From NCBI GenBank assembly GCA_038851035.1, contig JAWCLH010000018.1:1-55357 (forward strand): a DNA stretch of 55,357 nt, read 5' to 3'. Source of the DNA: Thermoplasmata archaeon. GTDB taxonomy: Archaea > Thermoplasmatota > DTKX01 > VGTL01. A program made the translations under genes and the position numbers. Below the pieces are notes generated by a model. That model ran no database searches. It was not told the origin of the DNA and was given only the letters and a program-made list of their open reading frames with translations. Of the stretch, positions 4,262 through 45,313 are shown piece after piece (the first letter of the stretch is position 1; every line of letters begins with the position of its first letter).

Positions 4262-4564
4262 TTATGTATCTGACCTGAACCGCCAAAGATGGCGACGTCG
4301 CTTCCGTCTTTCTTCCCTTGCTCTCAACATTTCCGCTCTTCTTGAATTTTTATATTGGAGGGCTGCCTGTAATGCGGCATTCATCTCCAGCCATTCCTTG
4401 TAATCAGTTCCCGATAAAGCCAATTCCTCGATATCTTCAAAATGGCATTCAATAGGATTTAGCCATGATGCATTTGTCGGTGTGAATACGAATGATACCT
4501 TATTCATTCTAGCCCAATGACGAATATCTTTCTTTTTATGCGCGGAGAGATTGTCCATGATCAA
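4262..4564 (-). CDS. IS630-type transposase, downstream frame (orfB)
   Basis: About 100 residues carrying the rest of the DDE catalytic domain: LIMDNLSAHKK (second Asp) and TPTNASWLNPIECHF (the NPIE box with the catalytic Glu). In this frame the sequence extends upstream as FNFFKLLRLHYPPEQRIYL, which matches the family and overlaps orfA. Joining needs a -1 shift around the ATTTTTTC run near 4608. Either the element uses programmed frameshifting, as some IS families do, or it has been inactivated by an indel. Confidence 0.75.
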   Translation of the reverse strand: MIMDNLSAHKKKDIRHWARMNKVSFVFTPTNASWLNPIECHFEDIEELALSGTDYKEWLEMNAALQAALQYKNSRRAEMLRAREERRKRRRHLWRFRSDT

Positions 4565-5352: not shown

Positions 5353-5398
5353 CAATAGGGGATATGGTTGTCCTAGGATTCGAATCTCTCGGTCATAA

Positions 5399-6931
5399 AT
5401 GCAGGAGTCGATTTTGAGTCACGGCACTAGTCTATACAATCTCAATCTTAAATTTGAGGACCAAAATCAATTATCACATATTTGCTTATTAACTATTGAC
5501 CCTGATAATTATTTTAATGAAATAGACGAAAATAATAATAATCTTGCCGTCATCGTAATAATAGATTTACCAAAAATAATAGTATGGCCAGATAAGGCTC
5601 TGACAATTGAGGCAATTACTTTTCAAGGTATCACTATTTTTAACGATCTTTTTTTCGATTTTGGCGACGGAAATAATTCAAATTGGATTAAGGACAAATC
5701 GATTAAACATCTATATAATAGGATGGGTAACTATACAGCAAAATTAAAAATTCGTGACGAATATGGGTTAACAAGCAATTGGTGCTATATTAATTTAACA
5801 ATAAACAATAGGTCCCCAGTAATTGAAAGTAGCTCTTTGTCCTTTATTTATTTAGCTAATGAACCCATTTATTTTAATATTTCTATATATAACATTGACG
5901 GTTTCATTACTAAAATATATTGGAACTTTGGTGATGGAAGCATCAGCGAGCTACCCAACCCCGTCCACAGCTACTCCAGAGCCGGCATCTACACCGTCCG
6001 CTTCACCGCCTGGGACGACGACGGCGCGTCCAACTCGACCGAGTTCAAGATATATGTCATGAACCGCGACCCCCTGGCCGATTTCAATATGTCCCTGACC
6101 ACCGCCACGGTTCTCGACGACATCGCATTCACGCCCGAGGCCTTCGACATGGACGGGACGATATCGCAATACTTCTGGGATTTTGGAGACGGCTCCACGA
6201 GCAGCGAGCCAAACCCGGTCCACCGCTACGGGACAAAAGGGACATTCTGGCCCACGCTCTATGTCATTGATGACGGGGGCGCGATGAGCAACATCGCCCG
6301 GAAGCAAATTATCATTGAAAACATCCCGCCACGGGGCGCGATAAACGCCTCCTCCACTTCCCCCCTCACATTCGAGAGGGTCAATTTCACAGCCTCAGGG
6401 AACGACGCAGACGGCGTGGTAAAGCTGTATATATGGGACTTCGGCGATGGACCCACTGCGGTGGGCGAAAACGCGGGCCACGAATACAGGGACGACGGGA
6501 CCTATGAAGTAAAACTGAGAGTCATAGACGATGATTTTGATGAGAACGTGACCAGCATAACGATAAATGTGCGGAACAGAGGCCCTGTGATTGGGCTCAA
6601 ATACGAAGAAAAGCTCATGGCCGGCGCGAGAGTGTGTCTCGACGCCTCAGGCTCCTTCGACTCCGATGGCCGCGTCGAGGCCGTGAGCTGGCTGATTGAA
6701 AATAAGACCATCAACCGCACCGTTGTCAACTATACTTTTACGAAGCCGGGCAAATATCTGGTCAGGGTGACGGTGCGCGCCGACGACGGCGCGCTGACGG
6801 AGAAGAGCTTCGAGATAACCGTGCAGGCTGAGAGAATCTCTCGCGAGACTTTCCTTTTCTGGATGTGGGCCGTCCTGATTGCCGCCGCAGTCGTTCTGGC
6901 AGCGGCATGGAAGAAACGTAGGGAAAGATGA
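5399..6931 (+). pseudogene. PKD-domain surface protein, 5' end apparently lost at the IS630 element
   Basis: About 510 residues remain. The first part ends like a CARDB domain (IDPDNYFNEIDENNNNLAVI), then come about four PKD domains marked by FDFGDGNNS, WNFGDGSIS, WDFGDGSTS and WDFGDGPTA, a further Ig-like domain, and a C-terminal helix (FLFWMWAVLIAAAVVLAAAW) ending in KKRRER. This is a cell-surface protein anchored by its C-terminus. There is no signal peptide: the frame opens in mid-domain beside the transposon, so the true N-terminus is probably gone. Bases 5399-5935 are strongly AT-rich and 5936-6931 GC-rich, with a sudden change inside the second PKD domain. Confidence 0.75.
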
Positions 6932-6967
6932 GGGGCGAAGGTGGGTGGTTGAGCGCTGGCGCGCGGC

Positions 6968-7477
6968 TCAGCGCTTCGCCTGATAGGTCGCCGCCAGCCT
7001 CGAGGTCAGCCCCTTTTTGACCTCGCGGTAATATGCGTAGCTCATCGGCTCCGCCTCGCTGAGCGTCTCGGCCTCTGTGACCTCGCCCAGAAACAGAATG
7101 TGGGTCCCGGCGTCGAGGGTCCCCACCACCATGCCCTCGAGATAGGCCACGGCGTGGTCGGTCACAACGGGCGCCCCGTTCTTCCCCGTCATGTACGCCG
7201 TGCCTGAGAACTTGTCCACGTCCCTACCCGTTTTGAAGCCCCATTTTCCGAGGAACTCCATAGGCGCGTCCCGGCCGAGCACCGAGACAGAGAAGACCCC
7301 GCTCTTCTGCAGGAGCTCGCAGGTCAGGTTCTGTTTGTTCAGGCTCATCACAATCTGGACGGGCTCTGCCGTCACCTGCACGATCGCGTTCACCAGCTGG
7401 CCGGCCTTCCTGCCCTCGTGCGCGGTGCTCACGATGTACATCCCGCAGCCCAGCTTGAACAGCGTCTCGAGGTTCAC
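6968..7477 (-). CDS. Flavin reductase-like FMN-binding protein
   Basis: A 169-residue flavin-reductase-domain protein that should bind FMN and pass electrons from NAD(P)H or a partner. It starts VNLETLFKLGCGMYIV and contains the family stretch VNAIVQVTAEPVQIVMSLNK (FMN binding), then SVSVLGRDAPMEFLGKWGFK and a late TYAYYREVKKG-type motif (here SYAYYREVKKG). It resembles the flavin domain of rubredoxin/flavoredoxin-type proteins. GTG 7477 is chosen because AGGAGGG lies just upstream; the longer frame before it is low-complexity. It lies near the hemerythrin/PAS gene, fitting an oxygen- or nitric-oxide-related role, but this is inference. Confidence 0.85.
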   Translation of the reverse strand: MNLETLFKLGCGMYIVSTAHEGRKAGQLVNAIVQVTAEPVQIVMSLNKQNLTCELLQKSGVFSVSVLGRDAPMEFLGKWGFKTGRDVDKFSGTAYMTGKNGAPVVTDHAVAYLEGMVVGTLDAGTHILFLGEVTEAETLSEAEPMSYAYYREVKKGLTSRLAATYQAKR

Positions 7478-7786
7478 CCTCCATCCCTCCTGTGATTCTC
7501 CGGCGGCCCGGGGCCCCACATAGCCCCCGGGGCACCGTTGAGGCTCCTTCATTCCCCGAACCCATGCGGGGGCGCGAACCATTTCCGGCCCTGGAGCCGG
7601 GAGACATCCGGGGAGCCGGGTCCACCCCGCCTGGCCCGCGGGTCGCGCCGGACCCCGGCAGCCCCCGCTCCCCGGGCATCGCATCGACTCCAGGCCCCCC
7701 ATCGCTCAGGCGGGTGGCGCCTCCCGCCGTCTCCTCGCGCCCCGCCGCGCCGGGCCGCGACGCGCCCTGCTTCGGGGCTGAATTCA
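7478..7786. other. GC-rich spacer with no supported gene
   Basis: About 310 bp between the flavin reductase and the hemerythrin/PAS gene. Open frames on both strands are low-complexity Pro/Arg/Gly strings caused by base composition. Nothing recognisable as RNA or a repeat. Confidence 0.5.
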
Positions 7787-8848
7787 TCAGTCCAGCAGCC
7801 TCTTCTCGCCCCTTATCTTCTGAATTTCAGTGATGTCCTGCGAGACCTCGAGGGTGCCGAGGTACCTCCCGTCCCGCCTGACCGCGAAGTAGCGGATATG
7901 TATCACCCTCCCGCCCATGTTTATCCAGAACTCCGCCACGTCCCTCCTCCCTGCCCTGAACTCGTCCAGAATTCTCTGGACCGCGTGGATCGACTTCTGC
8001 GGGTGGCAGTTCTGGACCTTCCGCCCGATTATCGCAACCGTGCGCGGGAAGATTCTGTGCGGGCCGTCGCTGTAGTACCTGACCGCGTCGTCGACGCCGA
8101 CGAACGTGATGTCCACGGGCAGGGTGTTCAGGACGGTCTCCAGCTCCTCCCTCGAGAACCTGCCCGTCCTCAGCTCGATCAGCTCCTTTTCCGGCTCCAT
8201 TGCCATCCCCCCACCTGAATTCCTGCCCCTGCCCTTCCCCGCGACCTTCCTCTCCCCGGCCGTCTCAGCGCCCTCGGCCCCCGCCCCGGCTCCTCTCTCC
8301 TTTTCTCCCCTCACAGCCCCGCCGGGCCCGCGGGCGCCCGCCGGAGTGAAACAACAGTATCCGATTTCGTCGAAGGAGCTCGCGACCTCGGCCCACTCAC
8401 CTCCGGTCAGCGTGCTCAGGGCCATGGGGAAGAGGACCGAGTTCTCCTTCGTGAAGTGGCTCTCGAGCATCGCCCTGAGCTCGCCCGAGAGGGCCTCCAG
8501 CCCGCCGGCGCCCTTCAGGTCCCCCCTTACCGCCGCCTCCGCCAGCGAGTAGAGCCGCTTCTTCACCTCCCTTATCTCGTTGTGCTCGGTCCACATCTGG
8601 ACCGTCGGGCCGGAGAAGCCGTGCCTCTCCATCACCGGGAAGAGGCCGTTCTCCTCGCGCAGATAGTGCTTCTCCGACTCCCTGAAGTGCTCGATGATGT
8701 CCTGAAGATGCTCGAGCTCCTCTCCGCACGCTTCGGCCCTCCCGGTCTTCCCTATCGCCGAGGCCGTCAGGCCCAGCTCCTCCGCGAGGTCGAGGAGAAT
8801 ATCGTGCTCGGCCATCAGGGTGTGCACTGGGTGGCCCTCGGGCGCCAT
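7787..8848 (-). CDS. Hemerythrin HHE and PAS domain protein (DUF438-like)
   Basis: A 353-residue two-domain sensor. The N-terminal hemerythrin-like four-helix bundle (about 1-150) has the iron-ligand pattern HTLMAEHDILL, HFRESEKHYLREENGLFP, WTEHNEI and HFTKENSVLFP. A low-complexity Gly/Ala/Arg linker follows. The C-terminal PAS domain (about 235-350) contains RRIFPRTVAIIGRKVQNCHP-like text and ends in a DITEIQKI segment. DUF438 proteins share this order and are thought to sense oxygen, NO or redox state through a di-iron site. ATG 8848 and TTG 8875 are both possible starts. The TATA-like CATAAATAATACG lies near 8920-8930. Confidence 0.85.
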   Translation of the reverse strand: MAPEGHPVHTLMAEHDILLDLAEELGLTASAIGKTGRAEACGEELEHLQDIIEHFRESEKHYLREENGLFPVMERHGFSGPTVQMWTEHNEIREVKKRLYSLAEAAVRGDLKGAGGLEALSGELRAMLESHFTKENSVLFPMALSTLTGGEWAEVASSFDEIGYCCFTPAGARGPGGAVRGEKERGAGAGAEGAETAGERKVAGKGRGRNSGGGMAMEPEKELIELRTGRFSREELETVLNTLPVDITFVGVDDAVRYYSDGPHRIFPRTVAIIGRKVQNCHPQKSIHAVQRILDEFRAGRRDVAEFWINMGGRVIHIRYFAVRRDGRYLGTLEVSQDITEIQKIRGEKRLLD

Positions 8849-29418: not shown

Positions 29419-32400
29419 TCACCCCGCCGGGGCCTCCTCCGACTCAGTCGCGAAGCACTGGGTCTCCCTCCCCACGCGCTTCACGTATATCTTCCGGGCC
29501 GCGGTCAGAATGTCGATGTGGTAGTGGACCGTCGGGGCGCTCAGGCCTATTCGAGACGCGATCTCTTTCTGTGAGATGCCGGGGTTCTTGGCGATAATGT
29601 CCAGAAGCTCGCGCTGGATGCGCGTCATCCTGAGCACGAGCTCGTCCGAGGGCTCGGGTATCTTCATCTCCACGGGGTAGAAGCGCCTGAACCTCCCGTC
29701 CATCACCGACTTGATGAAGTTCTCCCTCTCGAGCGTCTTGAGGTGGTAGACGAGCGTCCCGTTCTTCAGGCTCAGGGCCTTGCGAATCGAGTTGTAGTGC
29801 TCGCCGGGGTTGGCCTTGATGTATCCGTAGACCTGCCCCCGGACGAAGTGGTCGAGCACGTCGTCCCTCTTTATCTTGGTGTAGAGCGGGACGAGCAGGA
29901 ACGAGAGCAGGCCGTACCTCCCGCTCTCTGTCCCCGCCCCAAGGGCCCCCAGCGCCCCGAGCGCTATTGCCGCTGCGCCCGCGGCCGCCGCCGCCGGAAT
30001 CGACGGCATTGCCGCGGGCCCCCCGCCGATTCTCACCCTCTCGATGAAGACGTTGTTGGTCTCGTCCCTCTCCACGACAGCGTTTTCTGGGTCGACCTCG
30101 AACCTGAGGGTGTGGGGGCCCGCGGTCGGCCTCCAGGCGAAGTAGGCCGTCGCCTTCGAGCCGCCAGGGAGGACCAGAATCTCCTCGAACTGGGCGCCTT
30201 CACCGTCGACCTTCAGGCTCACACGGACGTTGCGCGCCGGCACTTCTCCCGTGTTGGTCACAGCGACGGCGGCCAAGACCCGCCTACCCTCGGTGAATCT
30301 GTCGGGCGAGTAGCGCACGCTCAGGGAGAGCTCCGGGAGGAGGTAGCGCAGAACGAGGCCCAGGCGCTCCGTGAGGCCTCCGCGCGAGACGGCGGTGACG
30401 AAAATCTCCGGCCGGCCCTCGCCCGGCGCGAGCGGGGCCCTGAGCTCGAGCACAAGACCGGCGGTTGCGCGCGGTTCGAGGCTGACTCCGCGGACCTCGC
30501 GCATCTCCGCGTCCCTCAAGACGGCCGTCCAGCCCTCCGGCGCCTCGACTCCCAGCAAGACATTGTCCGGGGCGTTACCTAAGTTCCTGAGATGGACGAG
30601 GGCGACGGCGACCTCGCCCGGCGCCATCCTGAGCACTGGCGACGATGTGGTCAGGGAGACTCCAAAGACCTCCTCCACAGCGGCGATGAAATCCGCCTCC
30701 GCGCGAGCGCCCGAGGGGGCGGTGAAGACGGCCCTGAGGTTGTACTCCCCAGCGAGGGCGCCGGGGTGCGTGTGGACAAATACCCTGAATGAGAGCTCGG
30801 CCCCGGGTCCAAGGAGCAGAGGCTCCGGGAGCCCGATGAACTCCGCACTCCAGCCGGGTGGGAGCTCGATTCCCACTCTCGCCTCCTCCGCGGCGCTCCC
30901 GCGGTTGCGGAGGGTCAGGAGGACAGGCAGCGCGGAACCGGGTCGGGCCGTGGGCCTCTCGGGAATTGCGTGGGCTAAGAGAGAGTGGGTCTCCCTCACC
31001 GAGACGGTGACGGTGGTCCCGGCCGAGGTGCCCCACTCCCTCGAGAACGCCCAGAGCCTCGCGACAAAACGGCCCGGGGTGCTCTCGGGGGCGCGGACAG
31101 TGAGCCGGAGCATGCCATCCTCGCCGGGCGCGAGGATGAGTTGGTCGGGCGAGAGGGAGTGGGCCCAGCCGCCGCTGCCGGAGACAACCTCGACGGCTGC
31201 CCCTACCTCGCCGGTAAGGGTCCCGGCGTTGCCCACAGTTATATTGAAGTCGGCAGTGCCCCCGGGCTCCACCTCAGCCTCGCTCGCCGAGGGCTGAATT
31301 CGGAGGAGGACGGGCGGCGCCACCAATACCGCGCCCGATAAGGTGGCCGCCTCGCCCGCGGATGGCGTCACGAACCTTAGGGTGAAGGGGAGGACGCTGC
31401 CGGGTGGGGCCAGAGGGTCGGGCGAGGCCGTGAGAAAACGCCTCTCGGTCCCGCCGCGATGAATTATCAGCTCGCTCGTGTCGAGAGAGATGGAGAGGAG
31501 GGGGCCGGAAGAGGCTGTGATCTCGAGCTCCTCGTCGGAGTCCCCACCATTCCTAAGCTCGACAACGAAGCGCGCGGGCGAACCCGGCGCGGCAGCCTGC
31601 TCAGAGGGCTCGAGGAGCGCGGTTACCCTGTGCCTGACCTCGAGCCTTAGAGGGATTTCGACGGCGCGGCTGAGCGAGGAATTCGATGCGGAAGAAATCA
31701 CGACACTTAGCATTGCCCTCCCGCCGCTTGCCGACGCGGGCGGGGTGACCAGGACAATGGCGACGGCTGTCCCGTCGCCGGGGAGGAAGAGCTCGCTGGT
31801 CTCGGGGACCGCTCTCCAGCCGGCCGGGACGGAGGATGGCTCAATGCGCACGAGGAGGGTCTCGGGGGCGCCCCCCGTGCTCCTGACCACGACTGGAATT
31901 CTCGATGCGACGTAGGGGTGGACCACCGCTTCGTCGGCCGGGAAGCCGGTCCCGTGAATTCTGAAGCCCGCCGTGAGGCCCCTCGCGAGCCTGAGCTCTG
32001 GGCCCTCGGCCCAGACGGCGTGGAGCCTGCCGCCCGCGCTGACCGACAGGAGGGGCGGGGATGTGGCGCAGGCCGCGGGCCCTAGCCTCAGGTTGGGCGG
32101 GTAGGCCCTCCACTCCCCGGCCCTGAGGACGGCATAGAGTGCCTCCGGGGTTCCGTAGCGGCCGTCGAGCCAAGCCACGACCAGTTCCCCGCCGGCGCCG
32201 AATGCCAGGGAGGGGTCCGAGATCGCCTCGGCCGGTCCCGTGATGAGAATGACATCGAAGCCCTCTCCCGCAACCACATGGCGCCCGAGGGCTATTCTGC
32301 CCTTCTCGCCGGGACCGCCCGTGTTCCAGGCGAGGACCGCACACCCATCCGTGTCCCTTGCGATCCCGGGCAGGGTACCGGCGGGCAGCAGGGGGACGTG

Positions 32401-33156
32401 GGCCGAGAGCTCGACCCCTCCCGTGGCCCCAAGGCGCAGATAAATTCCGCCGGAGGTCGTGCTCAGGACGAGATCCACGGTACCGTTTTCAGACGGTAGG
32501 AAGGCGCCGTCGAGCACCTGGGCCCCGCCTGGGGCTTCGAAGGAAATGGGGGGCCCCGACGGGGTTCCGCCGGAGCCGAGGGGCTGGAGGAGATATAGGT
32601 AGCGGCCCGCCAGCGGCTCGAAGGACACATAGCCGACCAGCAGCCCTTCGCCCACGGCAACTATAGAAGGCCCGTGGACGCCGAAGGGGTTGCTGCGGAC
32701 GAGCCTATCCACCGACGGCAGTCTCCCGGAGGGGTCGTGGCTCGTCAGGTATATCTCGGTCCCGCCTGAGGCGCGGACGAAATGGATATAACCGAAGGAA
32801 TCACGCGCCGCCTGCGGCGCTCCGCCCCGCGAGGCCCAGAGCTCCCGAGCCGCCGGGCCGAGATATTTCGGGGACTGCAGGGGGCGGCCCTGTGGGTCGA
32901 GAAGGACGTGCCAGACCCCCCCGCTCTCCCATATCAGGCTCTGGGTGCCATCGCTGCTCGAAATCAGGGAAAGGGGTGTGGGACAGAAATCGGAGGCTAT
33001 GGTTTCGGCCCGCGTCCACAGGAGGCCCTGTGCGCGCTCCAGCGAGCCCGAGTCCTCAGGGCAGGGCCCTGCCGAGGCGGTCGGAAGCGGGGCTGAGAGC
33101 AGCCAGATAGCGGCCGCTGCCGCGCAGACCGGCCAGATGCGCCGGGGGACCACCAC
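29419..33156 (-). CDS. Membrane-spanning sensor with double winged-helix cytoplasmic end
   Basis: A 1245-residue protein. A signal peptide (about 10-35) leads to a propeller-like region (about 50-420), then several NEW3/CARDB-type Ig domains (about 420-1030; motifs such as SAEFIGLPEPLLLGPGAELS and FEVDPENAVVERDETNNVFI). A hydrophobic segment follows near 1045-1090. The last 155 residues hold two winged helices: DHFVRGQVYGYIKANPGEHY with SLKNGTLVYHLKTLEREN, then ISQKEIASRIGLSAPTVHYH. This is a one-component transmembrane transcription regulator. The start GTG follows GGAAGGAG. The ligand is unknown. Confidence 0.85.
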   Translation of the reverse strand: MVVPRRIWPVCAAAAAIWLLSAPLPTASAGPCPEDSGSLERAQGLLWTRAETIASDFCPTPLSLISSSDGTQSLIWESGGVWHVLLDPQGRPLQSPKYLGPAARELWASRGGAPQAARDSFGYIHFVRASGGTEIYLTSHDPSGRLPSVDRLVRSNPFGVHGPSIVAVGEGLLVGYVSFEPLAGRYLYLLQPLGSGGTPSGPPISFEAPGGAQVLDGAFLPSENGTVDLVLSTTSGGIYLRLGATGGVELSAHVPLLPAGTLPGIARDTDGCAVLAWNTGGPGEKGRIALGRHVVAGEGFDVILITGPAEAISDPSLAFGAGGELVVAWLDGRYGTPEALYAVLRAGEWRAYPPNLRLGPAACATSPPLLSVSAGGRLHAVWAEGPELRLARGLTAGFRIHGTGFPADEAVVHPYVASRIPVVVRSTGGAPETLLVRIEPSSVPAGWRAVPETSELFLPGDGTAVAIVLVTPPASASGGRAMLSVVISSASNSSLSRAVEIPLRLEVRHRVTALLEPSEQAAAPGSPARFVVELRNGGDSDEELEITASSGPLLSISLDTSELIIHRGGTERRFLTASPDPLAPPGSVLPFTLRFVTPSAGEAATLSGAVLVAPPVLLRIQPSASEAEVEPGGTADFNITVGNAGTLTGEVGAAVEVVSGSGGWAHSLSPDQLILAPGEDGMLRLTVRAPESTPGRFVARLWAFSREWGTSAGTTVTVSVRETHSLLAHAIPERPTARPGSALPVLLTLRNRGSAAEEARVGIELPPGWSAEFIGLPEPLLLGPGAELSFRVFVHTHPGALAGEYNLRAVFTAPSGARAEADFIAAVEEVFGVSLTTSSPVLRMAPGEVAVALVHLRNLGNAPDNVLLGVEAPEGWTAVLRDAEMREVRGVSLEPRATAGLVLELRAPLAPGEGRPEIFVTAVSRGGLTERLGLVLRYLLPELSLSVRYSPDRFTEGRRVLAAVAVTNTGEVPARNVRVSLKVDGEGAQFEEILVLPGGSKATAYFAWRPTAGPHTLRFEVDPENAVVERDETNNVFIERVRIGGGPAAMPSIPAAAAAGAAAIALGALGALGAGTESGRYGLLSFLLVPLYTKIKRDDVLDHFVRGQVYGYIKANPGEHYNSIRKALSLKNGTLVYHLKTLERENFIKSVMDGRFRRFYPVEMKIPEPSDELVLRMTRIQRELLDIIAKNPGISQKEIASRIGLSAPTVHYHIDILTAARKIYVKRVGRETQCFATESEEAPAG

Positions 33157-33252
33157 GGGAACTCCTTCCACCTGCTGCTAAATAAAGCTTCTGGAGAATA
33201 TATACTCTAATTGGTATGCTTGTCTAATTGATTTATAAATATAGCGGCGGGC

Positions 33253-35309: not shown

Positions 35310-35412
35310 CTATCTCGGCCTCCTCCTTCTCAGCGCAAGATAGCCCGCCGCAGCGGCCGCCGCGAGGAGAATAATGACTTCGACCGCCAAGAGCCGGTAA
35401 TTTCTCTCAGAC
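35310..35412 (-). pseudogene. Orphan membrane-anchor remnant
   Basis: A short open stretch ends at the TAG at 35310 and encodes AVEVIILLAAAAAAAGYLAL followed by RRRRPR. This is a typical C-terminal anchor, like those of the surface proteins in this region. It has no attached ectodomain and lies just past the stop of the FG-GAP/FN3 gene, so it is probably what is left of an earlier anchored gene. Confidence 0.55.
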
Positions 35413-35424
35413 GGGAGATTGCGG

Positions 35425-38400
35425 CTACTGCCGCGGCACACTCAGCCCTCGATAGACTCCAGCCCTTCCGCAGCTCGGGCACGTTACTCTGAGAGGGTAT
35501 GATGCTGGCTGGATATAGAAACGGGTCCGGCATCCCGTGCACTCTATTTGCTTCAGTGCCGTAGGCGGAGAAGGTAGTGGCGATGGCGGTTGCGCCGGGG
35601 CTTCCTCAATCCAGCCCTCAGGAGGCCCGGGGGGGCCGGGTCCGAGGGGCGCTCCGGGAAGAGCCTCCTCCATCTCGAGCGTCTCGATTTCCTCCACCGG
35701 GGGCTGCGGCGCAGCTCCTGGAGTTCCGGGAGGGGCAGGAGGCGATCGCGCTCCCTTCCTCCTCCATCCGCAGACAGCGAGCAACGCTCCGATAACAGCA
35801 AGCCCGAGAGGGAGCCAGAGCAACAGGGGGGTTCCGGCGGTGGTAATTCCAGCCCCCCTAGCCGGAGGGGGAGGGGCGGGGCCGGGCCCGGCGCCCTTCA
35901 GGGTCGTGAAGGTCATGTCCGCGCTCCAGGGCGCCCAGTTCCCGCTGGCGTCCCTGGACCTGACCCTGAAGTGGTAAGTAGTACCCTGCGTCAGGCCCGC
36001 GAGCTGCATGGAGTGGTTGCGGACGAGAACACCGGAGCTCAATACCTGGCCGTAGTGGACGTCCGTTCCGAACTCGACCAGACTGTCCGAGAGCTCGTCC
36101 GTGACCCAGCTGACGACCGCACTCGTGTTGGTTATATTTAGCACAACAATGCCCGTTATGACTGGCGGAGCGCTATCCGGCGCGGCGCTCGTGTTGAAGA
36201 CGATGTCCTCGCTGACGGACGGCCCGTTGCCGAAGACGTCGGTTGACTTGACCCTGAGGTGGTATCTGGTCGATGGCGAAAGGTCCCGGAGCATTACACT
36301 ATGGAAAAGGACATGGCCGGGGTCGCGGGCGCTGAGGCCGTATTCTGCAGAGAGGCCGTAATCCACCTCGCTGTCCGCGAGCTCGTCGGTGCGCCAGGTC
36401 ACGACGGCCCTGTCGGTTGATATTCCCTCGACCCGGACATCGGATATCACGGGTGGAGCCCTGTCCGGCGGAATCGGCGTCTCCATCGTCCTGAACGTGA
36501 GGTCGGGGCCCGTGGCGGCGTTCCCGGCACGGTCCTGTGAGCGGGGCCGGACGTGGTAGCTGGCGCCGGGCGAGAGCCCCGAGAGCAGGAGGCTGTGGCG
36601 GAGGACGAGCGTGCCGTCGGAGGCGCTGAGTCCGTACGAGGTTGTTGGACCGAAGTCGGCGCGGCTGTCCGAGGGCTCGTCGGTCTCCCAGACCACAACG
36701 GCTGAGTTCCCGGTTATCCCCTCAACACCCGCGTTAAAAATAACGGGCGGCCTCAGGTCGGGCGATGAAGCGGTGGTGAACGTGTGGTCCTCGCCGGTTG
36801 CCAGCGCCCCACCCCCGCTCCTCGACACAACCCGGAAGTGGTATGTCGTCGAGGGCGAGAGGCCGGAGAGCTCGATGCTGTGGCTGAGAACGAGGCTCTC
36901 GTCGGACACAAACCGTCCGTAGGATGTGGTGGGGCCGTACTCAACGCGGCTGTCGGCGGGCTCGCTGGTGCGCCATGTAACCACTGCCTGTGTGTCTGTT
37001 ATGCCGGAAACGCTCACATCGGATATGACCGGCGGATTCAGGTCCGGAGGGGTGCCGATACATATTGGGCCGAAGTGGGCCGCGCTCGAGTTCCACCTCA
37101 GGTTCCTGCCCCGCGCCCGGATGTGGAAGTACCACTTACCGGGCTCGAGGGGCGAGCTGGTGGCGTCATGAATGCTGGCTTCCACATCGATTTTGTCGTC
37201 GGGAATTGTGGACGGTGAATTGTCCCAGACGAGGGAGTAGCCGCTCGCCTCCGAGATATTTGTCCAGAGCACATGGACGATGTTGTTCGTGTACCATGTT
37301 CCCGGCTGGGGGTGTGTGTCGCTCCAGACGACGGGGTTCGCGGGGGCGGGCCTCTCCATTATCAGCTGGTAGGCGTGGCCATCGCTACAGGTTACATAAA
37401 TCTCTTTTTGTGATGGGTCGCCCATGGCGCTTCCGGTTGCTATCTCAAAGAATTTTTTATCTTTAATATTCCCGATGTGCGAAGGAGTCCAATCGCCACT
37501 CATTTTATCTCTAGAAAGTTTATAAATTCGACCATCAACAAACAATTCCCGGTTAAAGCCGCTAATATATATTTCATTCGAGCCGTCAGCGTCGATATCA
37601 GCCATTGCAAGTCCCATTATGCTGAATCCATTATTTTCTAATGAAAATATTGTATTATTTATCCAAGAAGAAGCATTCTGGTCATATATAAACTTTTGAA
37701 TTACATCACAGGAGGATACATATATTTCATTTTGGTTATCATGATCCAAGTCGTCAATTTTAATATTTATTTTATAACCAAGAGTATTACTCGTTTTAAC
37801 TTGTCCCAATAGTGTTCTTGTCCAAGAAAATGTTAATGTTGAATAGCTGAATTGATATATATCTCCAGATTCTGAAGTTACATAAATTTCGTTGCTTCCA
37901 TCATTATTCCCATCGGCAATTGCAAGTCTATGTATCGGATCTCTTCTGTTTGGACTTATCTCTTCAGAAGAGCCTATATGAATACTTTTCCAGTTATCAC
38001 TTTTATAAATCATATTTATATTTTGTTCTCTAGTTATTTCAATTAGTTCAATCCGGCCATCATTATTAATATCTCCCATATATATGTCATCTGCGAATGA
38101 TTTTGTCTGATTTATCTCAATATCATATTTGATCCATTTATTATTTTCATATTGGATCTGCATTAAGTAAGAGGGGAGAGATGGCTGAGCCGTTCCTACC
38201 ACATAAAACTCATTCTTATCATCATTATCTCCATCACCAAATATCATTTTAATTATCTTAAGTTCGTCCCCCATAATCTTTCTTGTTGACCAATTATAGG
38301 TCGAAGATTGATAAATATATTGATAAAAACCTGCCATATTATTGTAGTTGTCTTCAATTGGAAAATAGATTTCAGGAATTCCATTATTGTCTATATCACC

Positions 38401-38604
38401 TATTTCTAGTCCAGAAAAATATGAGCTGGAAGACCCTTCGGGTCCACCCATATCGTTGATCAACCAAATTTCTGTTTCCAAGGATGAATATAATGGCATA
38501 TATAACAATAAGATAATTAGAATTAATGTAATCGCTCGGAATTGATTAATAATTAATGATATTGAGACATCTTTTTTTAATAATTTTATTTGATAAGTAT
38601 TCAT
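35425..38604 (-). CDS. FG-GAP/VCBS and FN3 surface protein with cytoplasmic zinc ribbon
   Basis: About 1059 residues. After a hydrophobic N-terminus (ITLILIILLLYMPLYSS) come about six FG-GAP/VCBS-like propeller repeats with calcium-loop text such as GLEIGDIDNNGIPEIYFP, IYMGDINNDGRIELIEI and GLAMADIDADGSNEIYISGF. Four FN3 domains follow (each with a VVTWRTSEPADSRVEYGPTT-like core), then a transmembrane helix (LLLWLPLGLAVIGALLAVCG), a Pro-rich stretch and a C-terminal zinc ribbon (CTGCRTRF...CPSCG). 37,400-38,604 is AT-rich and 35,425-37,380 GC-rich. It begins 16 bp after the preceding gene's stop, so they are co-transcribed. Confidence 0.85.
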   Translation of the reverse strand: MNTYQIKLLKKDVSISLIINQFRAITLILIILLLYMPLYSSLETEIWLINDMGGPEGSSSSYFSGLEIGDIDNNGIPEIYFPIEDNYNNMAGFYQYIYQSSTYNWSTRKIMGDELKIIKMIFGDGDNDDKNEFYVVGTAQPSLPSYLMQIQYENNKWIKYDIEINQTKSFADDIYMGDINNDGRIELIEITREQNINMIYKSDNWKSIHIGSSEEISPNRRDPIHRLAIADGNNDGSNEIYVTSESGDIYQFSYSTLTFSWTRTLLGQVKTSNTLGYKINIKIDDLDHDNQNEIYVSSCDVIQKFIYDQNASSWINNTIFSLENNGFSIMGLAMADIDADGSNEIYISGFNRELFVDGRIYKLSRDKMSGDWTPSHIGNIKDKKFFEIATGSAMGDPSQKEIYVTCSDGHAYQLIMERPAPANPVVWSDTHPQPGTWYTNNIVHVLWTNISEASGYSLVWDNSPSTIPDDKIDVEASIHDATSSPLEPGKWYFHIRARGRNLRWNSSAAHFGPICIGTPPDLNPPVISDVSVSGITDTQAVVTWRTSEPADSRVEYGPTTSYGRFVSDESLVLSHSIELSGLSPSTTYHFRVVSRSGGGALATGEDHTFTTASSPDLRPPVIFNAGVEGITGNSAVVVWETDEPSDSRADFGPTTSYGLSASDGTLVLRHSLLLSGLSPGASYHVRPRSQDRAGNAATGPDLTFRTMETPIPPDRAPPVISDVRVEGISTDRAVVTWRTDELADSEVDYGLSAEYGLSARDPGHVLFHSVMLRDLSPSTRYHLRVKSTDVFGNGPSVSEDIVFNTSAAPDSAPPVITGIVVLNITNTSAVVSWVTDELSDSLVEFGTDVHYGQVLSSGVLVRNHSMQLAGLTQGTTYHFRVRSRDASGNWAPWSADMTFTTLKGAGPGPAPPPPARGAGITTAGTPLLLWLPLGLAVIGALLAVCGWRRKGARSPPAPPGTPGAAPQPPVEEIETLEMEEALPGAPLGPGPPGPPEGWIEEAPAQPPSPLPSPPTALKQIECTGCRTRFYIQPASYPLRVTCPSCGRAGVYRGLSVPRQ

Positions 38605-38620
38605 TGTATCACAGTTAATT

Positions 38621-39901
38621 TTATTGATCAAATCTTATTTGATCCCAATACATTTCACCATGATTAACATTACTTTGTGTATCGATACCCATTTGCAAAT
38701 ATGTGAGGTCATTTTCATCTTTAACTATATTAAGATACATAAGGTCTATTTTCGAATCTGATAAGCCTGGAGGTATAATTAGATTACCATTAATATATAT
38801 TTGATAATAAGGTGAACCAGATTGAGGTTGTGTAGTTACTTTAATATTTAATTTATACCATTGATGGATATTCAATTCGCACACAGGATGATCAGCTGAT
38901 GTAAGAACATAATTCAATTTTACTGTATTCTCTATTTCCTTATAAATAACAAGGTTTATGTGACCATTATAAATCACATGGAAAAAATTACAATTCGGAT
39001 TATCTATATAAATCCACATTGAGACCCAATACGCGCCATAACTCCAGCTCTGTGGATTATAAGAAAAATGGGGCGTTTCTGCCCAAGCCTTTTTATACGG
39101 GGGGCAATTTATATATATATTATTTTTATTATTCCTCCATGATGGGACATTTAAAATGGCATTAAAAACTGTTTGAACGTTCCCATTTCCATTAGATTGG
39201 GCAGTCCAGAAGTCCCTTGCATCGGCGCCTCCATTTTGATAATCTTTCCCCATCCCGAATTCCTCAGATAAATCATAATCATTGACGGTTGTCGATGGTT
39301 GAGGCGTATGATATATTCGAATATTGTCAAAATAGCAATGACCATAATTTTGTTGATTTCCTACTTGACCAATCTCATCATCCCCCATTCGAATAGAATC
39401 GCCATTGGATTGCTCGTCATTAAACTGGCAATTTACCCTGTTCCCCTGATTCAGTGTGACTTGAAAATCAATTCCGTTTCCTGGATTTGCATGAATTTTT
39501 ACAGAATTCCATTGATTAAAAGATAATGAGCCGATAAATCCGCTAGATTGACCATCATAATAATATACCAATGGTTTCCCATCTTGTACATGATCAATTA
39601 CTATCGTTATCCGACGGCTGTCATAAATATAAAACCAATGGAAAGGTCCATTGATAGGGTAAACATATAATTCAGCATAATATTCTTGATCTCCTTGAAA
39701 TGGAATCATTCTATGAGAATCAATATATGCATTATTCTGTTGTCCTTGTGGTGAATTAATTTCTAAAATATATTCATTATGCTGTAATTTATGGAATAAA
39801 AATGGATAATAATTCATATGTAAAATAGTATCGTCATCGTGGGGTGGGCTCTGCCAGCCGTCTAAGTTGACGTCAGACGACTCAAATGCTACATTCCCCA
39901 T
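38621..39901 (-). CDS. Extracellular protein with two LamG/ConA-like domains
   Basis: About 426 residues from ATG 39901, without a membrane anchor. Two jelly-roll domains of the laminin-G/concanavalin type are seen. The first ends GHCYFDNIRIYHTPQP and the second ends GEMYWDQIRFDQ at the C-terminus; both have Trp/Tyr-rich strands such as WSYGAYWVSMWIYID. A likely carbohydrate- or ligand-binding secreted protein. A signal-peptide-like stretch (SASVVLIILIQTSAMG) is encoded just upstream in frame, but its expected first codon is ATA (39946), behind AAGGAGGAG. Strongly AT-rich. First gene of the operon with the FG-GAP protein. Confidence 0.78.
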   Translation of the reverse strand: MGNVAFESSDVNLDGWQSPPHDDDTILHMNYYPFLFHKLQHNEYILEINSPQGQQNNAYIDSHRMIPFQGDQEYYAELYVYPINGPFHWFYIYDSRRITIVIDHVQDGKPLVYYYDGQSSGFIGSLSFNQWNSVKIHANPGNGIDFQVTLNQGNRVNCQFNDEQSNGDSIRMGDDEIGQVGNQQNYGHCYFDNIRIYHTPQPSTTVNDYDLSEEFGMGKDYQNGGADARDFWTAQSNGNGNVQTVFNAILNVPSWRNNKNNIYINCPPYKKAWAETPHFSYNPQSWSYGAYWVSMWIYIDNPNCNFFHVIYNGHINLVIYKEIENTVKLNYVLTSADHPVCELNIHQWYKLNIKVTTQPQSGSPYYQIYINGNLIIPPGLSDSKIDLMYLNIVKDENDLTYLQMGIDTQSNVNHGEMYWDQIRFDQ

Positions 39902-40093
39902 CGCGCTCGTCTGGATAAGAATGATAAGAACAACTGAGGCAGATATCCCTGCGCTCCTCCTTACGGACGTTTCAATATACCCCCGCCGGGTTTAGTGTAT
40001 CCGCAGTCATCGCACAATCAATCGCCATTGCATCCAATAAAACTTTCGCTCCTCTGACCCTTTGCGCGCGCCTCATATCCCTTTCCCCCTTTT

Positions 40094-40109
40094 CCGGCCC
40101 ACGGGCCGG
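40094..40109 (-). promoter_or_regulatory. 5' leader hairpin, copy A
   Basis: CCGGCCC-AC-GGGCCGG, a 7-bp stem between the TATA box and the ribosome-binding site (GGGGGAAAGGG). The same position in copy B has a CCGGC...GCCGG stem with a changed loop. Confidence 0.55.
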
Positions 40110-40170
40110 CATTACCTATATCGTTTTTCTAGTATTTTTTTTTCGATGAGTTTCGGAAATCCGGCCGCGG

Positions 40171-40180
40171 TTTATATAGC
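40171..40180 (-). promoter_or_regulatory. TATA box of the LamG/FG-GAP operon
   Basis: GCTATATAAA on the minus strand, with a second TATAAA just upstream. It is conserved base for base in copy B at 43994-44003. Confidence 0.6.
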
Positions 40181-40282
40181 CTTTATATCCCATTTAAATA
40201 CTCTGAAAATAGTTATTTTTTAACCCGCCCGGCTCTTCACGAGCGGACCCGCGTTTTATCCCGCCGGCTTGCAGCTGCCTCA

Positions 40283-43012
40283 TCACGGCGGCCCCGGAGG
40301 CCCGGGCCCCTCGCCCATTCTTCTCTTCCTCAGCCTCAGGATGATGTATCCGGCGCCGGCGGCCGCGATGAGAACCAGTATCACCACAGGCAGGAGCCAG
40401 TCAGTCTTCTCAGACGGGGTTGGAGGCGGCGGCTTCGGGGGTAAATAGCTCAGGACCAGCTCCGTCCTGTTCAAATTCCAGGCCGCATCGCGGGCCTCGA
40501 TAACAAATCGATTCTCTCCCCTCTCCAGGACCACGGAGAGCGCAAAGATTCCACCCGTCCCGCTGACGGGCTCGCCGTTGATGCTCACAGTTGCCCCCGG
40601 CTCGCTCTGAACCCTAAGCTCGACATTCGCAATCTTCAGGACCCTCTCGACGGGCGCGAGAATAATAATCGGAGGCGGAGTCGTGTCCAACGTAACCCTG
40701 ATGGTTGCCTCTGCCCTGTTCCCGGCGCGGTCGAGCGAGACGGCCGTTATTTTGTTGGCGCCCTCATTCAGGTCAACCATTAGGCTGAAGCTACCGTCGT
40801 CAACGGCCGCATCTATGCCATTAACGCTCACAGCCGCTCCGGTCTCAGTCCTGCCGCGGACCACAACATTGCTCGTGTTGAGCAATGCGCCTTCCTTAGG
40901 CTCCAGAATCTCGATGAAGTTCCCGGTATCAAGATAAACTATGAGCGTCGTCGAGTTCTCGTTCCCGGCCGCGTCGCGGGCGTCGATTAGGAATATATTC
41001 TCTCCCTCCATCAATTCTACAGGGTGCTCGAACGCGCCGTCCCTGCGCAGGTCGAGGGGAACGCCGTTGAGCGTGGCCACGGAGGCCCCGACCACCTTCC
41101 CCTTAATCTCAAGATTCTTATTGTTCGTCAGGCTCCCGTTCTGCGGGCTATCGATTTCAATGGCCGGCGGCGTCGCGTCCCACTCGACCCTGACCCTGTG
41201 CATTCCGGTATTGCCCGCGTCGTCCCACGCCACGGCCATTATGCTGTGCTGGCCTTCGAACGGGAATGTGAAGGTCGTGGAGAAGGTGCCATTGGGACTT
41301 ATCTCAACTTCCCTGCCCGCAACTTCAAGTCTCGTTCCGTTGGTCCTTCCCCTCACCTCAATCGGGTTTTTGTTGGTCACGAGGCCGTCGGGCGGCTCGA
41401 CAATCGTAACATAGGGGCCGGTCTGGTCGAGGGTCACGTTTCTTATCACTTCCGCGACGTTTCCGGCCGCGTCGCGGGCCTGAATGACGAGCGTGTTCAG
41501 GCCTTCATTGAGCCACCAGGTCTGGTTGATGACGCCGTCAATATTGTTGATGGCTTCGTCATTAACGGTGACGCGCGCGCCGGGCTCGGTGGTGCCGATG
41601 ATATTAATCTGAGATGAATTTGTTATGAGGCCCTCGGGCGGGTAGGTGATCTCGAGCGGGGGCGGGACGTCGTCCAAAATGATGCGCACGAATTGATTCT
41701 GGCTCATGTTGACGCCGGTGACGGTGGCGGTGAGGTTGCGCCATTGGGCAACGATTTTGTGGGGGGTGAAAGTAGAGATTAAGTCTGTCGTGATTTGCTT
41801 CCACATCACCGGCAGCCAGGAAATGCGACCTTCATTATCGGTTGTGCACTGGGCAATTAGTTTGTCCTTTACATCATATATTTTCACATCGGCGCCCTCG
41901 AGACCGGACATGTAACTCTCACGCAGAATTTCAAGATTTAAAAACATTGATATGTTAATTTTACTTAGTTTATTCTGAATCGAATAAGTGGAATATGAAG
42001 TGTTTATTAAATTGAGAATTCCATAAACTATATTGTCAGATCCGACCTCAATATCTAGTCTTTTACTTTGAATGCTACAATTAACAAATGTAGCAATGCT
42101 ATTGTAATCAGATAGAATTGCACAACCTCTAGAAATATTGGTGTGGATAAAATTACATTTTTCGATATATCCCCCATAAGACATAATATCGAGTAGCCAA
42201 TCACCAGTATCACTCACGAATGAAGAATTATATATATGTACTTTTCCAAGAGAGAGGGATGTTTCTATAAATGTTGAGTTTTCGATAATCACAAAACCCT
42301 CGGGATTATTAATTGCTACATCAAAAAAACCTAGATCATTATCTTGATTTAAAATGTCGCCATAAAATGTTGAATTTTTTATTATCAAATTTAAACATTG
42401 ATAGATATATACTGGACCCCAACTAACTAGTCCCTCTTCTTTTCTTCTTGTGTTATTCGAATAAAAAGTACTATCCAGAATGGTCGTCGATATATCGATT
42501 ATTTCATCAGTTTTAGTAAGAATTCCAATACCTTCGTAGTAAATCGTCGATTTGGAAATGGTAAAATTATTGGATTCTGTTATTATTCCATTGACTTTAT
42601 GTTCTGGTAATGAATATGCAATATTGCGAATCTCAGTCTCGAAAAAGAGACAATTTGATTTCTGTTTCAATATCACATTATAACCAAATGAATTATTACT
42701 TGCTATTTTTGAATTATAGATTTCAAGAGTTCCTCCATAATCAATAATAATCGCGTGTGAACCATTATATATTGGATTCATTAGAATTATGGAATCTGAT
42801 ATCCACAACAATCCTCCCATTTTAATTGTTAAATTCTTATATATTATTAAAATGCTATTTTCGACTACTATATAATCATCTATTATTTTATCATCCCAGA
42901 TTATCAAGTGATATTTTTCTCCATCATAAGTTTTAAAAGGAAAGACATAATGATTAATTGATATATTAAAAAGGCAACCCAAAATGAGTAGGTAATGAAT
43001 ATATGTTTTCAT
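40283..43012 (-). CDS. Beta-helix and Ig-domain surface protein with membrane anchor
   Basis: About 909 residues. A signal peptide (YIHYLLILGCLFNISINH) precedes a right-handed parallel beta-helix (about 30-340) of the pectate-lyase-like type, seen as repeated short strands with Asn and Ile ladders (IIIDYGGTLEIYNSKIASNN, GFVIIENSTFIETSLSLG). A carboxypeptidase-regulatory-like domain (about 370-440) and about five Ig-like repeats follow (each with an EARDAAGN-like turn), then an anchor helix LLPVVILVLIAAAGAGYIIL and a basic GPGPPGPP tail. It changes from AT-rich to GC-rich around 41,830-41,870. It follows the upstream gene by 8 bp. Confidence 0.83.
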   Translation of the reverse strand: MKTYIHYLLILGCLFNISINHYVFPFKTYDGEKYHLIIWDDKIIDDYIVVENSILIIYKNLTIKMGGLLWISDSIILMNPIYNGSHAIIIDYGGTLEIYNSKIASNNSFGYNVILKQKSNCLFFETEIRNIAYSLPEHKVNGIITESNNFTISKSTIYYEGIGILTKTDEIIDISTTILDSTFYSNNTRRKEEGLVSWGPVYIYQCLNLIIKNSTFYGDILNQDNDLGFFDVAINNPEGFVIIENSTFIETSLSLGKVHIYNSSFVSDTGDWLLDIMSYGGYIEKCNFIHTNISRGCAILSDYNSIATFVNCSIQSKRLDIEVGSDNIVYGILNLINTSYSTYSIQNKLSKINISMFLNLEILRESYMSGLEGADVKIYDVKDKLIAQCTTDNEGRISWLPVMWKQITTDLISTFTPHKIVAQWRNLTATVTGVNMSQNQFVRIILDDVPPPLEITYPPEGLITNSSQINIIGTTEPGARVTVNDEAINNIDGVINQTWWLNEGLNTLVIQARDAAGNVAEVIRNVTLDQTGPYVTIVEPPDGLVTNKNPIEVRGRTNGTRLEVAGREVEISPNGTFSTTFTFPFEGQHSIMAVAWDDAGNTGMHRVRVEWDATPPAIEIDSPQNGSLTNNKNLEIKGKVVGASVATLNGVPLDLRRDGAFEHPVELMEGENIFLIDARDAAGNENSTTLIVYLDTGNFIEILEPKEGALLNTSNVVVRGRTETGAAVSVNGIDAAVDDGSFSLMVDLNEGANKITAVSLDRAGNRAEATIRVTLDTTPPPIIILAPVERVLKIANVELRVQSEPGATVSINGEPVSGTGGIFALSVVLERGENRFVIEARDAAWNLNRTELVLSYLPPKPPPPTPSEKTDWLLPVVILVLIAAAGAGYIILRLRKRRMGEGPGPPGPP

Positions 43013-43020
43013 AATCTTAT

Positions 43021-43893
43021 TTACTCTATAAATCTAAATTTGATATTATATAGATAAGCACTTTTATTAACAAAAACTTCATTAGAATCATAAAGATTTC
43101 TTGAATATATATTGAAATGAAAATCCCATCTTCTATTAAAGTTTTCTTGTTTTGTTATTTCGAAATTTATATTTGGAGGATTCGATTGAGTACTACGACC
43201 GTAATAGACAGTATAATATCCACTTGTTACGTCATTGTGATATCCCCATTGCACGGTCCCATTTACACGACTTTCTAATGTATAAACATAATATACATCT
43301 AAAGATTGTCCTGGAGATAAGTCGTTGGTTCCATCGTCTTGATAACAACATGAACATACAATAGACACACTTTTAAACTTTTTATCAATAAGCTTTTCTT
43401 GACCGTCAATAAGTGTTTTGTAAATATAACTACTGTTCTGGTCATGATTTTTCAACCACATTGAACCCATATCAATTATATTGGAATCTTCAGAAATAGG
43501 TGTAGCCGATAAATCTATATGAAATTGATAATCTGGTGCCATTACACTGCTGATTTCTAAATATGGATGGCAAACATAGTAGCCATCAATCTGCCCCGGA
43601 ATTATCCAGACTATATCCCCCGGCTGCCATCCTCCCTGAAAGTCATCAAGTAAAACTTCAAAATGCCCTTGCTCATCTGTTTGAGCGTAGATCTCAGCCA
43701 TTGTCCTCTGGAGCTGAAATGTTATGTCCAGATTTACAATAGGTTGTCCTGTATTTTCTGCAGTGACGAATCCTTCAATTGAGGGGCCACCTGTGCCGAA
43801 AGTTGGAACTGGAATAGTCGTCATGACCAGAATCCCAATGACCATCGCCCTCCATAAAACTTTCGCCACTCTGGCCCTCTGCGCGCGCCTCAT
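43021..43893 (-). CDS. Secreted protein with carboxypeptidase-regulatory-like domain
   Basis: About 290 residues. MRRAQRARVAKVLWRAMVIG starts a signal peptide encoded inside repeat copy B. A CarboxypepD_reg-like domain follows (SIEGFVTAENTGQPIVNLDI, then DEQGHFEVLLDDFQGGWQPG), and the remaining ~170 residues are AT-rich-encoded and unrecognised, without an anchor. GGGGGAAAGCGAT precedes the ATG. It forms an operon with the beta-helix protein (8-bp gap), so the two may work together outside the cell. Confidence 0.78.
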   Translation of the reverse strand: MRRAQRARVAKVLWRAMVIGILVMTTIPVPTFGTGGPSIEGFVTAENTGQPIVNLDITFQLQRTMAEIYAQTDEQGHFEVLLDDFQGGWQPGDIVWIIPGQIDGYYVCHPYLEISSVMAPDYQFHIDLSATPISEDSNIIDMGSMWLKNHDQNSSYIYKTLIDGQEKLIDKKFKSVSIVCSCCYQDDGTNDLSPGQSLDVYYVYTLESRVNGTVQWGYHNDVTSGYYTVYYGRSTQSNPPNINFEITKQENFNRRWDFHFNIYSRNLYDSNEVFVNKSAYLYNIKFRFIE

Positions 43894-43917
43894 ATCGCTT
43901 TCCCCCTACCCCTTTTT

Positions 43918-43933
43918 CCGGCCCTCCAGCCGG
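43918..43933 (-). promoter_or_regulatory. 5' leader hairpin, copy B
   Basis: CCGGC-CCTCCA-GCCGG, a 5-bp stem at the position equivalent to the copy A hairpin. The loop differs but the stem is kept. Confidence 0.5.
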
Positions 43934-43993
43934 CACTTCCTATAACGCTCTTCTAGTATTTTTTTTCGATGAGTTTCGTAAATCCGGCCGCGG

Positions 43994-44003
43994 TTTATAT
44001 AGC
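43994..44003 (-). promoter_or_regulatory. TATA box of the CarboxypepD_reg/beta-helix operon
   Basis: TTTATATAGC on the plus strand, GCTATATAAA on the minus strand, about 100 bp before ATG 43893. Same as 40171-40180. Confidence 0.6.
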
Positions 44004-44046
44004 CTTTATATCCCATTTATATCCCGCCGGATTTCAGCCATCCGCC

Positions 44047-44360
44047 TCACGGCGGCCCCGGGGGCCCGGGCCCCTCGCCCGTCCTCCTTTTCCTCGCCCT
44101 CAGGGCGATGTATCCGGCCCCGGCGGCCGCGATGACAATCAGTATTGCGACGGGCAGGAGCCAGTCGACTTTTTCAGACGGCTCTGGCAGGTGCGGCTTT
44201 GGAGTGGCGTGGCTCAGGACTAATTTTATGCTGTTCACATTCCCTGCCGCGTCCCGGGCCCTCATGAATAGCCCGCTCCCGCCCCTGTGCGGGCCAATAG
44301 GGAGCGCAAAAAAGCCTCTGATACTGACCGCTCACGTTAACGCTCACGATTACCACACCC
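44047..44360 (-). pseudogene. Truncated Ig-domain plus anchor remnant
   Basis: The open part from MRARDAAGNVNSIKLVLSH through the anchor LLPVAILIVIAAAGAGYIAL ends in RKRRTGEGPGPPGPP, matching the end of the beta-helix protein. Further upstream the frame keeps similarity (GFFALPIGPHRGGSGLF) and then breaks near 44320 into another frame (VSVNVSGQ). This is the leftover end of a third anchored gene, truncated beside the toxin-antitoxin pair. Confidence 0.8.
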
Positions 44361-44390: not shown

Positions 44391-44722
44391 TCACTCAATC
44401 ATTGTGGAAATCTTTTCAAGCAGAGGCGGAATGTGTTTGGTCATCACATCCCAAACGATTCTGTAGTCGACACCGAGATAGTCATGAATAAGGACATCCC
44501 TCATGCCCGCCATCTCCCTCCAGTTGACTTCGGAGTGCCTCATCCGGAACTCCTCAGGAATTCTCTTGGCTGCCTTCCCGATTATCTCGAGGCTCCTCAC
44601 CGAGGCTCTCTTGAAATCTTCATCAGCCAGGAACTCCTCCAGATTCGTTTTTTCGTGAGATTGACCAGATACTCGCATTCGTCCCGGATGTGCCTGAGGT
44701 ACTCAATGCAATCCTTCGGCAT
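44391..44722 (-). pseudogene. HepT-type toxin gene with a one-base frameshift
   Basis: The first 22 codons ([20 protein letters not shown]) are in one frame and the rest in another ([20 protein letters not shown]). The joint is an AAAAAA run near 44656-44661, where one extra A would restore about 110 residues. The HEPN RNase motif RDVLIHDY (RxxxxHxY) is intact in the second part. The start lies inside the end of mntA. Frameshifting suggests an inactive toxin or an assembly error. Confidence 0.75.
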
Positions 44723-45026
44723 ATTCAACCTCGCGGAGGATGTGCGGACCAAGATAGGGGCTGAGGCCGCCCACGGTAACTAGGTCTATTTTCCCTCTCA
44801 GCAGTTGCGTCAGGAAGGAGTGAAGGCCCATCAGGTCGGCGAAAGTCTCCCGGCCGGGCTCGAACTCGACCAGAAGATCAATATCACTATCTTCACGAGC
44901 GCGGCCCGCCCTCACGGAGCCGAAGAGACCGATTCTCCTGACCCCGAACTCTCGCAGCCTCTCCGCACTGGAGGACAGCTTCCGGAGGACCGCCGATTTA
45001 CTCGGTGGGCCCTTGTTGTCTGTCAT
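44703..45026 (-). CDS. MntA-type minimal nucleotidyltransferase antitoxin
   Basis: About 107 residues. The nucleotidyltransferase motif GLFGSVRAGRAREDSDIDLL (GS...DxD) is intact. MNT proteins of this type neutralise HepT by adenylating it. ATG 45026 follows GGAG 6 bp upstream. It overlaps the hepT start by 20 bp. Confidence 0.85.
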   Translation of the reverse strand: MTDNKGPPSKSAVLRKLSSSAERLREFGVRRIGLFGSVRAGRAREDSDIDLLVEFEPGRETFADLMGLHSFLTQLLRGKIDLVTVGGLSPYLGPHILREVEYAEGLH

Positions 45027-45313
45027 GCCGGACTCCTGCATTCGCAGCGATTATTAAATGAATGTGTTAGAAGATAAATTTTTCATTGGAGCACCGGTGA
45101 GGCGTCGCAACCACCGCAACAGTAATCGAGTACCTCAGCCCTCGCAATGAGTAATTCCGCCCCGCCCACCCACAACCAGACCCGCCCCCCTCCCGCCGCC
45201 GGATTCCAGTCATCGTCCTCACGGCGGCCCGTCCGGCGAGCGCCCGCCCGCTCTCCCCCTCCATGAGCGGACGCGAGGGTGGTGGGGGTGGCCGGCCCGG
45301 GAGATTTCGGGCC

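Follow-up and report, generated by a model that had tools for sequence, protein, structure and literature searches.

Low-GC interiors spanning an apparently exported partner and the head of an anchored protein in two surface-protein operons of a Thermoplasmata archaeon

Introduction

Why should two neighbouring operons that encode different protein domains share one plan, in which a small exported protein that lacks a membrane anchor is followed by a large anchored one? The question is raised by a stretch of 55,357 nucleotides from a Thermoplasmata archaeon (contig JAWCLH010000018.1 of assembly GCA_038851035.1, positions 1 to 55,357), hereafter the window, in which two such operons lie side by side. 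A preliminary description of the window proposed that they form a two-component surface system, a released or partner-bound protein and its membrane-held mate, with a common promoter, leader and signal-peptide start. Our analysis favours, with a probability of roughly 0.58, that these are native surface-protein loci in which the interior was exchanged or underwent rapid remodelling as a single unit, with the small partner and the outward head of the anchored protein recombining together on a conserved stalk. This reading is based on composition steps inside genes, duplicated gene junctions, orphan anchor ends and a pair plan that recurs, and further on near-identical stalks which, in a second genome of the same family, are joined to diverged partners and heads under purifying selection. 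If it is correct, little-known archaea would alter the exposed part of a surface protein with stalk and anchor unchanged, a small exported partner moving with the head.

Results

Each operon contains a low-GC block (Table 1) that crosses the border between the small gene and the anchored gene, in a window whose overall GC content is 61%. The GC content at third codon positions (GC3) is 0.2-0.3 in the bodies of the small genes and in the heads of the anchored genes, and about 0.75, the native value, in the leader and in the stalk and anchor. By a single change-point fit, with a large likelihood in five genes, GC3 rises at codon 362 of the anchored gene of operon 1 (0.22 to 0.73) and at codon 408 of the FG-GAP gene of operon 2 (0.27 to 0.77); for a PKD/anchor gene elsewhere in the window (5399-6931) the step, 0.28 to 0.73, falls in codons 178-182, within a PKD repeat and at its W-N-FGDG motif. 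Weaker steps were seen on contig C17 of the host genome (99% complete), both in an FG-GAP gene (0.41 to 0.76) and in a Kelch gene of intermediate GC3 (0.53), as well as in a gene on contig C28 (0.57 to 0.88) of G001, a metagenome-assembled genome of the same family. The step is small or absent in stand-alone FG-GAP/FN3 paralogues, and GC-rich versions of both head families also occur in the host genome.

The common start of the two operons was examined by comparing the two promoter/leader copies, which are 97% identical over 64 bp around a TATA-like element and 87% identical over 146 bp. The whole repeat (40019-40496 against 43836-44260; 71% identity over 485 columns, blastn E = 3e-73) takes in the 3' end of an anchor gene, the intergenic promoter and leader and about 20 first codons of the next gene. 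The duplicated segment is a repeated gene junction, wider than a leader, and the operons begin alike because this junction was duplicated, not because they belong to a dedicated regulon. The preliminary description had overlooked both the anchor-gene end within the repeat and the GC mosaic. We dropped the leader as the mark of a regulon, given that it has two copies in the genome, with no further site found there, and that its DNA has at most short, chance-like matches in relatives, an outcome that the preliminary description itself had named as telling against its proposal. The leader hairpin is present in both copies as described, but it is no more stable than shuffled sequences (z -0.24 and 0.49), and the idea of a special RNA was dropped. 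Detached anchor ends occur beside the operons (Table 1) and also on C17 (30072-30419; L005:8070-8420), where an orphan Glucodextran_B domain and anchor 3' end form an open frame with no start codon that begins directly past the stop of the Kelch/anchor gene.

The two-gene plan recurs outside the window. At C17:48423-55420 of the host genome an SBBP-type exported open reading frame (ORF) precedes an FG-GAP/FN3 anchor gene whose head is lower in GC, and in G001 the end of contig C149 overlaps the start of C28 by 127 bases, giving a tandem of two pairs, each made of a 353-aa exported, anchorless ORF and an FG-GAP/FN3 anchor. The two stalk/anchor copies of this tandem (L091:1-2778 and 6007-8784) are 100% identical over 2778 bp, starting with the SDTHP codon and running through the stop codon; the stalk thus appears to be shared or homogenised. 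Its borders are sharp, with dense mismatches up to the base before the SDTHP codon and again from the base after the stop. The two partner copies have a synonymous divergence (dS) of 0.56 and a ratio of nonsynonymous to synonymous divergence (dN/dS) of 0.18; for the two head copies the values are 0.76 and 0.21, respectively. The dN/dS is low for partner and head alike, which indicates that both are maintained.

The presence of a partner is associated with the composition of the head. In a sample, not the full set, of about 53 anchored genes found around stalk homologues in the host genome and G001, an exported anchorless neighbour lies upstream of 4/6 low-GC heads and of 0/~46 others (Fisher p = 5.5e-5), the counts being approximate, with export and anchors called by hydropathy, the C17 gene added by hand and operon 2 scored as having an exported partner despite its broken signal peptide. 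Without the two window operons the association has p = 0.005. Pairing is not obligate, since FG-GAP/FN3 anchors of the same family with GC-rich heads stand without a partner at six loci; the plan that was described for the window returns at C17 and twice in G001 without being a rule. The partners have no homology to one another.

The gene models of the two operons stood up well: all four ORFs lie on the minus strand as described, separated by 8 nt in operon 1 and 16 nt in operon 2, and the FG-GAP and FN3 domains of 35425-38604, the Ig domains of 40283-43012 (four Glucodextran_B) and the C-terminal transmembrane (TM) anchors of both large proteins were recovered, together with the cytosolic, zinc-ribbon-like tail with CxxC pairs in operon 2. 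The head of the large protein of operon 1 is repeat-rich and, as judged from its sequence, beta-helix-like. The names given to the small proteins fared worse, as the 426-aa 'LamG-like' ORF has zero matches in Pfam, NCBIfam, PHROGs and PDB, and the CarboxypepD_reg-like match of the 290-aa protein (CpdReg-like; aa 38-80) scores 22.8 bits, under the cut-off of 32.3. Single-sequence structure models reached a predicted local distance difference test (pLDDT) score of 34 and 39, too low to use.

The signal-peptide start that the operons were said to share does not hold in operon 2, where the frame from ATG 40076 reads MRRAQRVRGAKVLLDAMAIDCAMTADTLNPAGVY-stop, 34 codons, in a different frame from the 'LamG-like' ORF. 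Just before ATG 39901 the frame of this ORF encodes a hydrophobic run, VRRSAGISASVVLIILIQTSA, and no ATG, GTG or TTG lies between the upstream TAA and ATG 39901; the cause would be a frameshift, an error in the assembly or a start codon outside the canonical set. On C17 the SBBP-type exported gene (L072:10971-13421) has one in-frame TGA in an otherwise open frame of 816 codons and may be a pseudogene, carry a consensus error or be read through. Judged by their reading frames, two of the three partner genes in the host genome (operon 2 and C17) look broken; in the small gene of operon 1, ORF and signal peptide are intact.

Neither small protein has a convincing homologue among 60 relatives, nor does the 'LamG-like' ORF among 390 genomes of the phylum, and the 353-aa partner has weak, partial matches outside G001. 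A viral or plasmid origin of the small proteins was rejected, as no relative of either was found in viral contigs, of the 'LamG-like' protein in plasmids or of the CpdReg-like protein in phages. In phylogenetic trees the stalk of operon 2 clusters with the C29/C19 type (support 94/91), and when the last 45 residues, its GC-rich end, are removed from the head, support for the C29/C19 grouping of the head drops to 46/0. A head that loses this support while the stalk retains it would fit what is expected of a hybrid, on a branch that is very long. The paired FG-GAP heads are not monophyletic in the best tree, but their monophyly is not rejected (p-AU, approximately unbiased test, 0.14).

Table 1. 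Positions in the window of the two operons, their low-GC blocks and the features around them.
Feature	Position	Strand	Remarks
Operon 1 gene 1 (CpdReg-like)	43021..43893	-	290 aa, exported, anchorless near-orphan, N-terminal signal peptide
Operon 1 gene 2	40283..43012	-	Low-GC head aa 1-361, four Glucodextran_B/Ig domains, C-terminal TM anchor
Operon 2 gene 1 (so-called 'LamG-like')	38621..39901	-	426-aa ORFan, no in-frame signal peptide with canonical start
Operon 2 gene 2	35425..38604	-	FG-GAP propeller head aa 1-408 (low-GC), SDTHP domain, FN3 stalk, TM
Low-GC block 1	41900..43780	-	31% GC; gene 1 body and gene 2 head of operon 1
Low-GC block 2	37440..39960	-	33% GC; 'LamG-like' ORFan and FG-GAP gene head of operon 2
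Promoter/leader copy 1	43836..44022	-	TATA-like element, GCCGG hairpin, first signal-peptide codons
Promoter/leader copy 2	40019..40199	-	Signal-peptide ORF from ATG 40076, stop after 34 codons
Orphan Glucodextran_B/anchor 3' end	44050..44322	-	Directly upstream of leader copy 1, partly degenerate; 64% aa identity, 1.3e-30
Orphan anchor 3' end (PSERNYRLLAVEVIILLAAAAAAGYLALRRRRPR-stop)	35319..35420	-	Just after operon 2; 62% aa identity, 6.3e-6
Anchor 3' end/intergenic repeat trace	45196..45230	-	89% over 35 bp
MNT/HepT-type toxin-antitoxin pair	44391..45041	-	PF01934; flanked by two anchor-end traces

Discussion

In light of these data, we propose that the 5' end of each locus (promoter, leader and signal-peptide start) and its 3' end (Ig or FN3 stalk and membrane anchor) are native, and that the low-GC interior block would encode the body of the small exported protein together with the outward head of the anchored one. 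Such blocks would have been exchanged by recombination, with a 3' junction that lies within conserved motifs of the head end or close to them, and lower-GC relatives or mobile DNA may have been the donors. At the cell surface the stalk would hold the changeable head outward, and wherever the small protein is still secreted it could act with or near that head; the pair of changeable head and secreted companion may serve adhesion or recognition. The bare idea of a foreign cassette was softened because both head families also occur with native composition. Diversification driven by reverse transcriptase, as in a diversity-generating retroelement, was rejected, since the 99% complete genome has no RVT_1 reverse transcriptase, whereas control genomes gave matches; a reading as a defence system was rejected as well, because PADLOC has zero matches for the four proteins and matches the neighbouring MNT alone.

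Several observations weigh against replacement or remodelling as a unit. The low-GC heads share families with native heads, which leaves room for drift towards AT in situ, and the whole head of operon 2 also clusters with the C29/C19 type (92/84), as would be compatible with vertical descent. No donor was found, as partners and heads lack a close relative in the genomes of the phylum and in viral contigs, phages and plasmids where these were searched; no recombinase or integrase was identified, and none is seen in the operons. The identity of the G001 stalks comes from a metagenome assembly, in which the collapse of near-identical copies may exaggerate it. For the composition step the main alternative is drift in situ: heads and partners would be vertical, fast-evolving and drifted to AT, while gene conversion and selection would hold the stalk at high GC. 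The homology of low-GC to native heads suits it, as do the long branches of the heads, the skewed amino-acid composition of the operon 2 head, the intermediate GC3 of the C17 and Kelch genes and the homogenised stalks of G001; however, the heads of stand-alone paralogues, which are equally exposed, match their stalks in GC-richness, the PKD step is narrowed to about five codons within a repeat array and 30% GC is far under the 61% of the window, and we consider drift unlikely.

In a true two-component surface system the two products would function as a pair, the small exported protein binding to the head of its anchored mate or undergoing processing with it. Such a system is compatible both with recombination and with AT drift, and we regard it as a tentative possibility, short of an even chance. 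That the plan returns at C17 and in G001, that partner and head are retained in G001 at similar dS and that partners are found only beside low-GC heads argue for it, but it must accommodate the six loci of the same anchored family without a partner, partners that are not homologous to each other, an operon 2 partner with no in-frame signal peptide and a C17 partner interrupted by TGA. These apparently broken genes, and the lack of convincing relatives of the small proteins of operons 1 and 2, could instead mean that the small genes are hitchhiking or decaying ORFans, by-products of insertion or duplication with no role tied to the anchored genes. We find this rather improbable, as the small gene of operon 1 is intact and both partner copies of G001 are under purifying selection. 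Replacement of partner and head as a unit could also be taken further, to an archaeal system of surface diversification in which both are swapped in a single block while the stalk stays constant, with borders at the head/stalk boundary and the stop codon and perhaps by a dedicated mechanism, for the recognition of kin, partners or viruses; such a system is doubtful.

Among named archaeal systems the closest analogue is VARTIG of the Thermococcales, a hypervariable Ig module in which small, lineage-restricted genes share a putative operon with the gene for an exported, Ig-like large protein, the large gene first and the small genes after, and the C-terminal Ig domain is hypervariable by recombination (PMC8416519). 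The two have in common that the large protein carries several Ig domains (here four Glucodextran_B, or FN3). Unlike VARTIG, the large anchored gene comes second in both operons, the N-terminal head varies while the C-terminal stalk and anchor are conserved, and the DNNxxxGG motif found near the C-terminus of many VARTIG members (PMC8416519) is absent from the C-termini of both large proteins, MGEGPGPPGPP and VYRGLSVPRQ. The loci fit the kind of the multi-gene Ig/PKD surface loci of Methanosarcinales and Methanomicrobiales, with a partner gene added, as those loci encode mosaic proteins of mixed domain origin whose C-terminal domain is conserved or homogenised by recombination (PMC8416519). Here, too, several large Ig-fold surface proteins, some of them mosaic, are adjacent and overlap in their domain organisation, and the C-terminal part is conserved or homogenised, being identical in G001; in the window this is seen only in the junction repeats, at about 71-74%. 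A fixed upstream small exported gene, a low-GC block of partner and head or orphan anchor ends are not reported for them (PMC8416519). Polymorphic toxins combine a constant carrier, a swappable end and an adjacent small gene, with orphan gene ends beside the locus (PMC3482391), and the present loci resemble them in all these features but in mirror-image polarity and with no trafficking domain found; the four proteins have no toxin domain or immunity gene in Pfam, NCBIfam or PADLOC. The polarity is thus opposite to that of both VARTIG and the polymorphic toxins.

Neighbouring genes

The MNT protein of the toxin-antitoxin pair matches PADLOC candidate models PDC-S09. The PKD/anchor gene at 5399-6931 has no signal peptide and is abutted by ORFs (4262-5355) that, on inspection, are IS630-like transposases. 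A 1250-aa protein at 29419-33171 combines a NEW3/CARDB ectodomain, a membrane segment and two cytosolic winged-helix domains (HVO_0163-type and HTH_24) and has the look of a membrane-bound transcription regulator with a surface-sensing part; G001 has a similar arrangement (L090:12376-15351).

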